The notes under the pieces: generated by a model
Seen by the model: the letters and a program-made list of their open reading frames with translations, nothing else
What the model was told of the DNA's origin: nothing
The model's database searches: none
Shown: positions 19,318 through 23,718 of the stretch, piece after piece
Position numbering within the stretch: position 1 is the stretch's first letter
Layout: each line of letters begins with the position of its first letter
Position numbers and translations under genes: made by a program
DNA from: Candidatus Oleimmundimicrobium sp.
Lineage (GTDB): Bacteria > Actinomycetota > Aquicultoria > UBA3085 > Oleimmundimicrobiaceae
Direction of reading: 5' to 3'
DNA: 49,507 bases
NCBI RefSeq assembly: GCF_030651595.1
Contig: NZ_JAUSCH010000007.1
Span: forward strand, 1-49,507

Positions 19318-19695
19318 AAAGTCTGCCACCAGCCTCCAGGGAAAAATATGAATAAAGAAAAAGAAGGGTAAAGGGTGGTAGGGGAAAGTTAAAAGATATA
19401 AGCAGAGAGCATAGAGCAGAAAGAGTATGGAGTATGGAAAATAAAAGGGTAAGGTTTAAGGAGAAGTTAGGTGGTAATTAAGTTGTAATTAAGTGGAGAT
19501 TAAGTGGTAATTACAACAAATTACTATAAATTACAATGAATTACTATTAGTCTCAATAAATTACAATGAATTTCAATATCAGCACTCAGCAGAAAGAGTA
19601 TGGAGTATGGAGTATGGGAACCAAGTTGCTATGTAACCAACAAACTCCCGACTCCTTGCTAAGAGACTCCCGACTGATGGGTAAGAGGTGAAGCG
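19318..19695. repeat. Repeat-filled spacer with a helically phased AT array
   Basis: No gene. 19318-19440 and 19580-19680 carry the dispersed GAGCATAGAG/GGAGTATGG family, including ACTCCCGACTGATGG at 19666-19680, also present at 736-750. Bases 19473-19576 form a separate array: four 11-bp units (GGTAATTAAGT type) followed by six 10-bp units (TAAATTACAA type). The second set is close to the reverse complement of the first. A period of 10-11 bp of AT tracts predicts curved DNA. A ribosome site for the next gene (AGAGGTGA) ends the spacer. Confidence 0.65.
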
Positions 19696-20220
19696 TTGAG
19701 GTTAAAAAAAGGGCTGGTTCAAGTTTATACGGGCGAAGGCAAGGGGAAAACCACAGCGGCTCTCGGTTTGGCTATGCGAGCAGTTGGGCATGACTTAAAA
19801 GTTTATATGTTTCAATTTTTAAAAAACCGAGAAAGTGGCGAGATAAATGTGGCCAATATTCTTGGTCCTAATTTTATTATTGAGCAAGGTGGTGGGCAAT
19901 TTTGCCGACAAGGGAAACCTTCTGGTGAAAATATTAAACTTGCGCAAAGTCTATTTGCAAAAGTACGAAATACGGTCCTTGAAGGCCTTTACGATGTGGT
20001 GATTTTAGATGAGATAAATGTAGCAATTCATTTTGGACTGATAAATATCGAGCAAGTCTTAACTCTCATTAAAGAAAAACCTCAACATGTGGAGTTAATT
20101 TTAACAGGAAGATATGCACCATCGAAGATTATTGAAGCTGCTCAGCTGGTAACTGAAATGGTCAAAATTAAACATCCATATGACCAAAAAATTAAAGCAC
20201 GAAAGGGTATTGAAGAATAA
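19696..20220 (+). CDS. cobO: Cob(I)alamin adenosyltransferase, CobO/BtuR type
   Basis: Transfers the adenosyl group of ATP to reduced cobalamin, giving adenosylcobalamin. 174 residues with the characteristic P-loop GEGKGKTT (13-20), FQFLKNRESGEINV, DVVILDEINVAIHFGLI (Walker B-like) and VELILTGRYAPSKIIEAAQLVTEM, ending KHPYDQKIKARKGIE, the standard CobA/CobO C-terminus. The start is TTG 19696, 4 bases after AGAGGTGA, with no ATG in frame nearby. No other cobalamin genes are present, so it may serve salvage. It converges with the minus-strand RNA at 20222. Confidence 0.93.
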   Translation: MRLKKGLVQVYTGEGKGKTTAALGLAMRAVGHDLKVYMFQFLKNRESGEINVANILGPNFIIEQGGGQFCRQGKPSGENIKLAQSLFAKVRNTVLEGLYDVVILDEINVAIHFGLINIEQVLTLIKEKPQHVELILTGRYAPSKIIEAAQLVTEMVKIKHPYDQKIKARKGIEE

Positions 20221-20221
20221 C

Positions 20222-20452
20222 AAACCCCCCCAGTGGGTTCTCGAGACCCGTGCCTCTATTAACCATGGGGGGAAATTTAAAGCCCCAAGAAATCTTCATT
20301 AAGTTACCTTTTACTTGTAAGTTTCCCTTTTCGTACCCGCTAATAGTCTCTTACTGGACCTCTTCTCGCGAATTAGTTTTTCAGTTTCTATCTTAAGGCC
20401 GCTACTGGTACGTTTACTTTCAAAGTTCACCTTGTAGGACTTCTTGGGACCT
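20222..20452 (-). ncRNA. Candidate structured non-coding RNA of unknown family
   Basis: On the minus strand a strong promoter (see 20459-20486) predicts a transcript starting near 20452. The RNA is non-coding in all frames. Its ends approach through a 9-bp stem, 20441-20449 with 20283-20291 (UCCCAAGAA with UUCUUGGGG), then a large internal bubble of about 28 and 45 nt, then a 6-bp stem 20407-20412 with 20332-20337 (CGUACC with GGUACG). A GC-rich hairpin at 20226-20272 (CCCCCCA with UGGGGGG, containing an inner GGGU hairpin) and a following UUUGUU form a likely terminator. The closing stem, bubble and apical stem order recalls 6S RNA, but I do not recognise conserved 6S, tmRNA, SRP or raiA sequence. 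Low G+C surroundings make the GC blocks stand out. Confidence 0.55.
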
Positions 20453-20458
20453 ATAATT

Positions 20459-20486
20459 ATTTTAGCACAACCAACTTTTATGTCAA
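20459..20486 (-). promoter_or_regulatory. Strong extended -10 promoter for the minus-strand RNA
   Basis: Read on the minus strand: consensus TTGACA (20486-20481), 16 bases, then TGC-TAAAAT with -10 at 20464-20459. This is among the best promoters in the window and faces the structured region, with no open reading frame behind it. Confidence 0.72.
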
Positions 20487-20706
20487 CATAATTTAAAAAA
20501 AATTTTAAAAGTTTTTTTAAATAAAGTACCTCCTAAAACACCTCTCGATCTTTTTGTTTGTTTTTTTAAATTGTGATGAAGAAAATGCCGGTTAGTTTTT
20601 GCTCTGGTTTTCATGTTCCTTTCGTTTTATTTCAATTTACAATTCAATTTTACTCAACATTTTGAATTAGTTGTCAGACATCTATAATTTAACCACTAGT
20701 TTCTGT

Positions 20707-21237: not shown

Positions 21238-21318
21238 TACTTAATTTTACAGGTAATAATAAAACCGGTTTCAACTTTTATTTAATTGACTAAGGATGTT
21301 TTTCTGCGGGGAGCAAAG

Positions 21319-23076
21319 ATGGAATCTAAGAAAAGAGATTTACTTTTTTTGCAATCCCTTAAAGCTTCTGGAGGAGAAAAGCTCTCCTTTTTTTTAATTT
21401 TTTATCGTTGGGCAAATTGGTTATTGGCACTAATCTTTCTTATTTTAAGGTTTAGCCCGGAGATTTCGCCTGTAAGAGCTTGGTTTCTTATTTTTTTTGT
21501 ATTTTTATATAATTTCTTCCTCACAATTTTTCACCCATTTATTTACAAGAAAATTAAAAAACAGCCGCTTCTTTTGGGTGTAGATTATTTAATGTGTTTT
21601 AGCTTCGTAGTTTTAAGTGGTGGCTGGCGAAGCCCTTATTATCTTTATTCGTTTAGCCCAACATTGTTGGCTGCTATTTTAGGAAAAATGAAAGGGGGAT
21701 TTATAGGGGCCACTATTTCAGCTTCCCTTAATCTTTTAGCGCTGTCGTTAAATGGGTATAATCCTCAAAAATTAATTGGCATAGGATATAAAGACGATCT
21801 TATAGCGGACCAGCTTAGTTTTTTCTTAATCAGCATATTTTTTGCTTATCCGGTCATATTAACGGAACGACTGGATAAAAGTAAGGCTATTCTTGAAGAA
21901 ACGAAGAGAAACTTAGAATCTCAGGTTGAGGGCTTAAAATCAATTTATTCGATAGCGACAACATTTACTTCAAAATACTCTTTGCAAGAAGTGATGAAGG
22001 AAATCGTTGTTAGCATAAAAAAAGTTACGAAAGCGAGAAGAGTTGGGCTTTGTCTTTTTGTTGAAGGAGCTAAGGAATTATGTCTTGATTTATCGACTTT
22101 AACGATAGAAATTGCTTCTTCTGTTTCTTCCACCGAAAAGGGTTTTAAGTCTAAGAAGAAACGCGAGCATTACGCGACGCTGTTGGTAAGTGAAATGTTA
22201 AGCAACATGGAAAAATGTGCTGAGAGCGACAGCCCCTGCCCCGGGCTTTCGAAAAAGGGAGAAGGGAGAGAGGAGTGGTTGGCGTGCTTTCCGTTAAAAG
22301 TTCAAGATAAGAAAATAGGCATTTTAATCGTTGTTACCCCAAAGCTTTTTGACGATAAAAACAAGATAGTCGCAGGTATTTTAGCTAACCTTGGCGCCAT
22401 GGCCATCAAAAATGCAAGGCTTATTGAGGAGAGAAAGAAGCTTGTCTTGATTGATGAGAGGAATCGTATTGCAAGCGAGATACATGATGGCGTAATTCAA
22501 TCTCTCTTCGGTGTTAACATCGGTCTTGAAACTTATCGCAGTCTTCTTCTTAAAAGACCGGAGGAAGCAGACGGGTTGCTTAAAGAGCTGGAGGGGGAAG
22601 TTTCTCTGGCCATACAAGAGCTAAGAAATTATATATTTGATTTGCAAAAGAGTCATTTGATAGAAGAAGTTGGGTTAACCAAAGCCCTAAAAATGTATGT
22701 GAATCAGTTTAGTGGATTTTACGAGACAACTATTAACTTTACCGTAGAGGGAACTGAACAAGATTTATCACATGATGTTCAAAAGAAAATTTGCCATATT
22801 ATGCAAGAGGCCTTAAATAATGTGGTTAGGCACGCGGAGGCAGATTGTGTGGATGTGAAGTTGGTTTTTGGGAAAGGCATTGTCAAACTAGTTGTTTGCG
22901 ATGACGGGAAGGGATTTGATGTAAGGAAAGCATTTTTAGATGTGGCGGAGCGAGGCAATTTGGGTTTATTTGGAATGAAAGACAAAGTGGAGAGTCTGAA
23001 TGGTTCGTTAAATATTGTTAGCAATATTGGGGCTGGGACTAAAGTCGAAGCCATTATTCCAACTAAGGAGAATTAG
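21319..23076 (+). CDS. NarL-type sensor histidine kinase, membrane-bound with GAF-like domain
   Basis: 585 residues. N-terminal membrane domain of about six helices (residues 20-190), a coiled segment, a GAF-like domain (SIYSIATTFTSKYSLQEVM onwards), a HisKA_3 dimerisation domain with phospho-acceptor H389 (ASEIHDGVIQSLFGVNIGLE), and a C-terminal HATPase with N-box asparagines at 500-501 (QEALNNVVRHAEA) and VVCDDGKGFD. Signal unknown; the membrane and GAF domains are both possible sensors. The start is ATG 21319 after GGGGAG (21308-21313), preferred to the TTG at 21286. The regulator gene begins directly after its stop, so they form a pair. Confidence 0.92.
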   Translation: MESKKRDLLFLQSLKASGGEKLSFFLIFYRWANWLLALIFLILRFSPEISPVRAWFLIFFVFLYNFFLTIFHPFIYKKIKKQPLLLGVDYLMCFSFVVLSGGWRSPYYLYSFSPTLLAAILGKMKGGFIGATISASLNLLALSLNGYNPQKLIGIGYKDDLIADQLSFFLISIFFAYPVILTERLDKSKAILEETKRNLESQVEGLKSIYSIATTFTSKYSLQEVMKEIVVSIKKVTKARRVGLCLFVEGAKELCLDLSTLTIEIASSVSSTEKGFKSKKKREHYATLLVSEMLSNMEKCAESDSPCPGLSKKGEGREEWLACFPLKVQDKKIGILIVVTPKLFDDKNKIVAGILANLGAMAIKNARLIEERKKLVLIDERNRIASEIHDGVIQSLFGVNIGLETYRSLLLKRPEEADGLLKELEGEVSLAIQELRNYIFDLQKSHLIEEVGLTKALKMYVNQFSGFYETTINFTVEGTEQDLSHDVQKKICHIMQEALNNVVRHAEADCVDVKLVFGKGIVKLVVCDDGKGFDVRKAFLDVAERGNLGLFGMKDKVESLNGSLNIVSNIGAGTKVEAIIPTKEN

Positions 23077-23718
23077 ATGGAAAAAATTAGACTGTTTATT
23101 GCCGAGGACAACGATTTAGTTCGCAATAAACTAATTACGATGCTTAAAATCCAGGGGCTGGAAGTCGTGGGAGAAGCAGCTAATGGCCAAGAGGCATTAG
23201 TTAAAGTTGAAGAGCTAAAGCCCGACATTGTGTTGATGGATTTAAAAATGCCGAAAATGAATGGAAGTTCCGCTTGCAGAGAAATAAAAAAGTTGTTGCC
23301 GGAAACCAAAGTGATGGTTCTCACCTCTTTTTCAAATGATGAGCTGATACAGCAAGCCATTGAGGCGGGAGCAGACGGATATTTGCTTAAAGACATTCAG
23401 CCAAAAGAGCTATTAAAAGCCCTAAAAGAAACCAATGAGGGGAAATATCCTTTAAATTCGGAAGTTGCCAGAAAAATAGTGGAAAAAATTAAGTTGGGAA
23501 AAAAGCCGGTTGTGGAGCTTGACTTAACTGAACGAGAGATGGAAGTGCTGGAACTTGTTGCTGCGAGTCACACAAATAAGGAAATAGCCCTTGAACTCGA
23601 AATTTCTTCTAATACTGTGAAATATCATGTTAATAGAATTATAAAAAAGGTGGGGAAAAACGATCGCATTCAGACAGCAATTTATGCTATCGAGCACGGA
23701 ATTGTAAAAAAAACTTAA
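23077..23718 (+). CDS. LuxR/NarL-family response regulator
   Basis: Partner of the kinase upstream; the ATG follows its TAG with no gap and AAGGAG at 23065-23070. Receiver domain residues 1-120 with acidic pocket E10/D11, phospho-acceptor D55 (IVLMDLKMP), the switch serine in VLTS, and lysine in YLLKD. A linker leads to a C-terminal LuxR helix-turn-helix (LTEREMEVLELVAASHTNKE, then IALELEISSNTVKYHVNRI). 213 residues, normal. Targets are unknown. The palindromes at 21215 and 23781, before the kinase and before the next gene, are possible binding sites, though they do not share sequence. Confidence 0.93.
   Translation: MEKIRLFIAEDNDLVRNKLITMLKIQGLEVVGEAANGQEALVKVEELKPDIVLMDLKMPKMNGSSACREIKKLLPETKVMVLTSFSNDELIQQAIEAGADGYLLKDIQPKELLKALKETNEGKYPLNSEVARKIVEKIKLGKKPVVELDLTEREMEVLELVAASHTNKEIALELEISSNTVKYHVNRIIKKVGKNDRIQTAIYAIEHGIVKKT

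Follow-up and report, generated by a model that had tools for sequence, protein, structure and literature searches.

An apparently undescribed family of structured non-coding RNA genes with a conserved end stem and its own promoter in Actinomycetota

What is encoded between the cobalamin gene cobO and the RNase P RNA gene rnpB of Candidatus Oleimmundimicrobium sp.? In the window, by which we mean the whole analysed stretch of 49,507 nucleotides, the minus strand of positions 20226-20451 carries a dedicated non-coding RNA gene of about 170-230 bases between these two genes; all RNA features described below lie on this strand. An earlier note on this DNA had proposed some 230 non-coding bases faced by a TTGACA box and an extended -10 box, and both observations held: the minus strand of the RNA region contains no reading frame of note, and the promoter was located where claimed. 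This promoter, TTGACA-N16-TAAAAT with a TG ahead of the -10, agrees with 11 of 12 consensus positions in addition to the extended -10. The -35 box TTGACA occupies positions 20481-20486, with an A/T-rich tract, possibly UP-element-like, upstream of it (20487-20525). The extended -10 box (TG-C-TAAAAT, 20459-20464) ends 7 nt upstream of where the closing stem starts, and the 5' end of the RNA is predicted at around position 20451. On the opposite side, a T-rich tail (20216-20225) located behind a 3' hairpin is the probable end of the transcript; it overlaps with the end of cobO, a convergent gene whose stop is at 20220.

Comparison of the 361-base RNA region with the covariance models of Rfam 15 (4227 families) gave no match at E≤10. 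When the whole window was scanned at Rfam gathering thresholds, only the RNase P RNA and three tRNAs were detected. Likewise, 17 loci of relatives yielded only tRNAs at other places in these loci, plus chance matches below threshold, and a description of the family was not found in searches of the available literature. The locus almost certainly represents a real, uncatalogued RNA gene family. The family, whose carriers are environmental Actinomycetota that have received little study, is apparently undescribed, a newness that rests on the absent family match and would be less if its function were later connected with that of an RNA of known kind.

The distribution of the RNA was assessed by DNA, covariance model and motif searches. 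A DNA search of 100 relatives showed homologues in 16 genomes. Some of these genomes carry the 5' core and the 3' hairpin at separate places. Fourteen cores were aligned (MAFFT alignment A1, made without structure), folded, and then built into model R1, which matched 28 of 36 genomes in the window's class and further families in a phylum sample. With model R2, the RNA was found in 29 of these 36 genomes (relatives of Aquicultor), in 15 of 99 genomes of a third, unnamed class, and in 37 of 397 genomes of a phylum sample, the 29 of the window's class included. In the Coriobacteriia class, 64 of the 250 genomes sampled carry it; these are environmental lineages, and many have two or three copies. 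These counts come from samples, the large searches used stricter filters by which weak matches were lost, and the class names were taken from a separate record search. The RNA core of the window (20280-20451) matches the family models over its full length, with 172.8 bits for R1 and 147.1 bits for R2. Seven of the 36 genomes in the window's class gave no match, the fairly complete G004 and G008 among them, and the RNA is therefore not strictly required. A motif pattern scan of the genomes of 84,980 species returned 53 stretches, 51 of which belong to records named Coriobacteriia, Anaerosomatales, Aquicultor, Geothermocultor, Oleimmundimicrobium, other actinobacteria or unnamed uncultured bacteria. 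Two Slackia-named records among the pattern matches are metagenome bins. The two matches in Bacteroidota (L084 and L088) fail the family model and were taken as chance. Neither the core pattern nor the hairpin pattern was present in the viral contigs searched, and no similar DNA was found in plasmids and phages. A mobile or phage element was rejected on these absences and on the conserved housekeeping neighbourhood.

The folding energy of the RNA region has a z-score of -2.5, with 2 of 200 shuffled sequences folding equally well. Both ends of the RNA are joined by a closing stem of 14 bp, formed by a 5' arm (20438-20451) and a 3' arm (20281-20294). It includes the 9-bp stem proposed earlier (20441-20449 with 20283-20291) and is kept in homologues, in which 97.9% of its cells are paired (86 distinct sequences). 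The stem positions CCC-AG and UCU-GGG are nearly invariant, pair 12 is a G-U wobble in 94 of 109 sequences, and this end stem is the part common to every subtype. Short helices and internal loops are stacked in the interior, which is topped by a GNRA tetraloop (GCGA, 20366-20369). The alignment of homologues places a first bulged-G-like internal loop between a GAAA strand (20418-20421) and an AGUA strand (20312-20315); GAAA and AGTA are both present in 56 of 82 cores according to a simple text count. The central element is made of UACCAG (20405-20410) and, opposite to it, GAAANGGNAA (20323-20332), each conserved in 72 of 82 cores. A second, apical loop with GAAA (20379-20382) and AGUA (20352-20355) strands lies near the GNRA apex; it is found in the window's class and is not universal. 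Judging from their GAA/AGUA letters, the two loops may adopt the geometry of bulged-G (loop E, sarcin-ricin) modules, with which protein binding is often associated (PMC7247131). Ribosomal leaders with bulged-G modules (PMC7247131) have comparable internal loops, but the window RNA is an independent convergent gene and does not lie upstream of ribosomal genes.

Two other elements of the earlier note did not survive the comparison with homologues. The complementarity behind the proposed inner stem (20407-20412 with 20332-20337, CGUACC/GGUACG) is due to chance. In homologues UACCAG is retained, but GGUAC is replaced by GGUAA, GGUGU or GGAGG, and the covarying structure assigns the bases concerned to different pairs and to internal loops. 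Where a large bubble of the 6S type had been suggested, the interior instead consists of short helices and internal loops.

Strong covariation argues for this structure. In alignment A1 of the 14 cores, two-sided changes were found in 30 of 44 pairs and the same helices were already visible. Over 90 sequences, 88.2% of structure cells pair, compared with 70.2% after shuffling, and two-sided changes amount to 719, compared with 258 when shuffled and at most 166 when slid. Covariation was further evaluated with a script written in the R-scape manner, using Fitch reconstruction on a FastTree tree, substitutions redistributed among columns, an APC-corrected G statistic and 40 null alignments. Under this phylogeny-aware null, 16 of the 44 pairs reached E<0.05 in relatives, in which the stems are conserved, and the test of all column pairs gave six significant pairs, all six inside the structure model; this test is home-made and was applied to a structure-fitted alignment, and thus leans towards the structure. 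Among Coriobacteriia-class copies, the interior is highly variable.

The promoter keeps its place relative to the end stem. In 98 of 110 homologous loci, the -10 of the best promoter ends 5-9 nt before the stem, and the -35 reads TTGACN or TTGCNN in most of the 110; the mean promoter score is 9.5, against 7.7 for shuffled sequences. T-rich tails directly follow the end stem in many of these loci. Given the promoter position and these tails, the end stem is probably where the RNA starts and, in types lacking the hairpin, also where it stops. In the third-class copies L155-L159, the promoter lies away from the stem start, and the stem seems to be preceded by a 5' extension that carries a CATCTTC/GAAGATG hairpin of its own.

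Behind the core, the window carries a 3' hairpin (CCCCCCA-U-GGUU-AAUA-GAGGC-ACGG-GUCUC-GAG-AACC-CAC-UGGGGGG, 20226-20272) that hardly varies among 13 sequences drawn from seven families of the window's class. This hairpin, previously described as terminator-like, is real. It is conserved more than the core, and is therefore unlikely to be a terminator only. The 13 sequences are near-identical and hence show little covariation. A tRNA-like or pseudoknotted form, judged by eye, was rejected, since the variants better fit a nested hairpin with GGUU/AACC and GAG/CUC. Core and hairpin belong to one gene in the window's family. In genomes G006, G012, G017, G005 and G034, one gene holds a core without hairpin, and the hairpin is found behind a shrunken or divergent core in another. 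Third-class relatives retain mainly the end stem and an apical loop. Genome G009 has three copies of the RNA that differ in size, and a miniature RNA of 86 nt in this genome (L070:3906-3991) consists of the end stem and the first internal loop only.

What could such an RNA do? We favour a stand-alone, trans-acting non-coding RNA gene that founds an apparently undescribed family, with an end stem bound by a protein and an interior and a hairpin serving as effector parts, a reading that we regard as evenly balanced when taken as a whole. Its nature as a trans-acting RNA gene has good support at the sequence level, from a sigma-70-type promoter of its own fixed at the stem start, paired and sequence-conserved ends, covarying helices, a conserved chromosomal place and paralogues. 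We see the scaffold mechanism as having slightly less than an even chance. The transcript would be stable and well expressed. The end stem, present in every subtype and with its conserved G-U wobble, is a putative protein-binding site, and the interior, with the bulged-G-like loops, the UACCAG element and its opposite strand, and the GNRA apex, would be the effector part contacting further partners. The 3' hairpin could be a further effector part in the window's family. Such parts would be separable onto paralogues, in line with the split of core and hairpin in the five genomes mentioned above. Bacterial Y RNAs (YrlA), which act with Ro/Rsr, combine a conserved end stem with a variable effector domain. 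The window RNA also has a conserved, putatively protein-binding end stem and a variable domain, and by analogy it may follow the same general plan, in which a constant protein-binding stem carries an exchangeable effector domain, with a protein other than Ro. A search for the Ro protein (TROVE, PF05731) gave no match in the 36 genomes of the window's class, while the control Deinobacterium chartae matched. Ro is therefore excluded as a partner in this class, and a Y RNA proper was rejected on this absence and that of an Rfam match. Against the preferred reading, constraints on promoter and terminator could account for part of the conservation seen in the end stem sequence. The variable interior of Coriobacteriia-class copies, the restricted occurrence of the second bulged-G-like loop and the seven class genomes with no match also weigh against it.

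The earlier note had hesitated between a divergent 6S RNA and an undescribed family; the absence of an Rfam match at E≤10, the conserved stems, the covariation and the promoter all speak for the latter. In 6S RNA, a large single-stranded bubble at the centre looks like an open promoter, and the RNA binds the sigma-70 holoenzyme and templates pRNA. Like 6S RNA (RF00013), the window RNA is an intergenic rod of about 170-190 nt with paired 5' and 3' ends and its own promoter. However, it did not match the 6S model at E≤10, its covarying consensus has short internal loops only and no central bubble, it contains the conserved central element and GAA/AGUA loops, and a separate, canonical 6S gene (RF00013) is found elsewhere in the same genome (G000:C129:31477-31658, 84.3 bits for a gathering score of 46.4). 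A divergent 6S was rejected on these grounds. A 6S match was obtained in 27 of the 36 genomes of the window's class; none was found in families f5 and f10 of this class. 6S RNA has been described as missing from Actinobacteria (PMC9130861). As the RNA coexists with 6S, it is not simply the missing 6S of Actinomycetota. Canonical 6S (RF00013) was common in this part of the phylum, being detected in the genome of the window and in 47 further genomes.

A regulator that works like 6S or Ms1 and is unrelated to them in sequence, namely a stable rod with paired ends sequestering the polymerase holoenzyme or core, appears unlikely. Ms1 binds the RNA polymerase core without the primary sigma factor. 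The overall rod shape, paired ends and strong promoter of the window RNA would suit such a role, and Ms1 shows that there are actinobacterial polymerase-binding RNAs with little mutual sequence similarity (PMC9130861). Ms1 of Mycobacterium and Streptomyces (PMC4191392, PMC9130861) is also an actinobacterial RNA of 6S-related overall shape, but its sequence is different and it lies next to HAD-IB hydrolase/oxidoreductase genes (PMC9130861), whereas the window RNA has an rnhA-queD neighbourhood. This gene order, the canonical 6S in the same genome and in most genomes of the class, the lack of a large central bubble and the highly conserved letters of the internal loops all count against polymerase binding. 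We consider it improbable that the RNA is a regulatory small RNA base-pairing with mRNAs: its intergenic position, own promoter, T-rich end and several copies per genome would be compatible with this, but the conserved letters are nearly all in helices or structured internal loops, and a long conserved single-stranded seed was not seen.

The gene environment bears on two further alternatives. Recurrent neighbours, named by reading translations without a profile search, are rnhA, queD, zinc-ribbon, dtxR, ubiD and cobO genes. In 39 loci, RNase HI (rnhA)/QueD-type genes recur close to the RNA, in most cases in convergent orientation, and a zinc-ribbon gene accompanies the rnhA-queD neighbourhood in 22. 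A UbiD gene adjoins the RNA in 12 loci; in Coriobacteriia-class loci, a DtxR-family regulator adjoins it in 21 and a FeoB-like gene is near in 8. Linkage to rnpB was restricted to the genome of the window and two close relatives among those checked. In the Coriobacteriia-class contigs L081, L083, L092 and L115, two RNA copies about 1.2 kb apart flank the gene of a DtxR-family regulator. In the window itself, the intergenic stretch from queD to cobO (19396-19682) contains several short direct repeats, with periods of 10 and 11 nt and a 45-nt pair whose copies are 180 nt apart, and histidine kinase and response regulator genes (21286-23718) are located downstream of rnpB. The regulator and FeoB-like neighbours and the copy pairs flanking dtxR would fit an RNA that responds to iron or manganese and is linked to a DtxR-type regulon, but the window's class has rnpB, ubiD or other genes on that side and the shared rnhA-queD cluster is on the other side, and we hold this explanation to be quite improbable. 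Finally, it is very improbable that the structure is a cis-acting leader, a riboswitch or a plain terminator instead of an RNA gene, even with hairpin ends followed by T-rich tails, given that the first downstream gene is most commonly convergent, that no constant same-strand gene lies downstream and that the structure starts at the predicted transcription start.

To return to the preferred reading of a trans-acting RNA gene with a protein-bound end stem, we tentatively propose that the family could constitute a new class of bacterial RNA-protein scaffold, with a constant protein-bound end stem and detachable effector modules. The division of these modules between paralogues in other genomes would then represent subfunctionalisation at the RNA level, or the form found in the window would be a later fusion. 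An RNA family kept in at least three classes of the phylum, often in several copies and without an Rfam match, points to an unrecognised housekeeping or regulatory RNA. The order Anaerosomatales, in which the RNA is found, has cultured members, Anaerosoma tenue and Parvivirga hydrogeniphila (PMC9686372), and the expression and partners of the RNA may thus be directly testable.
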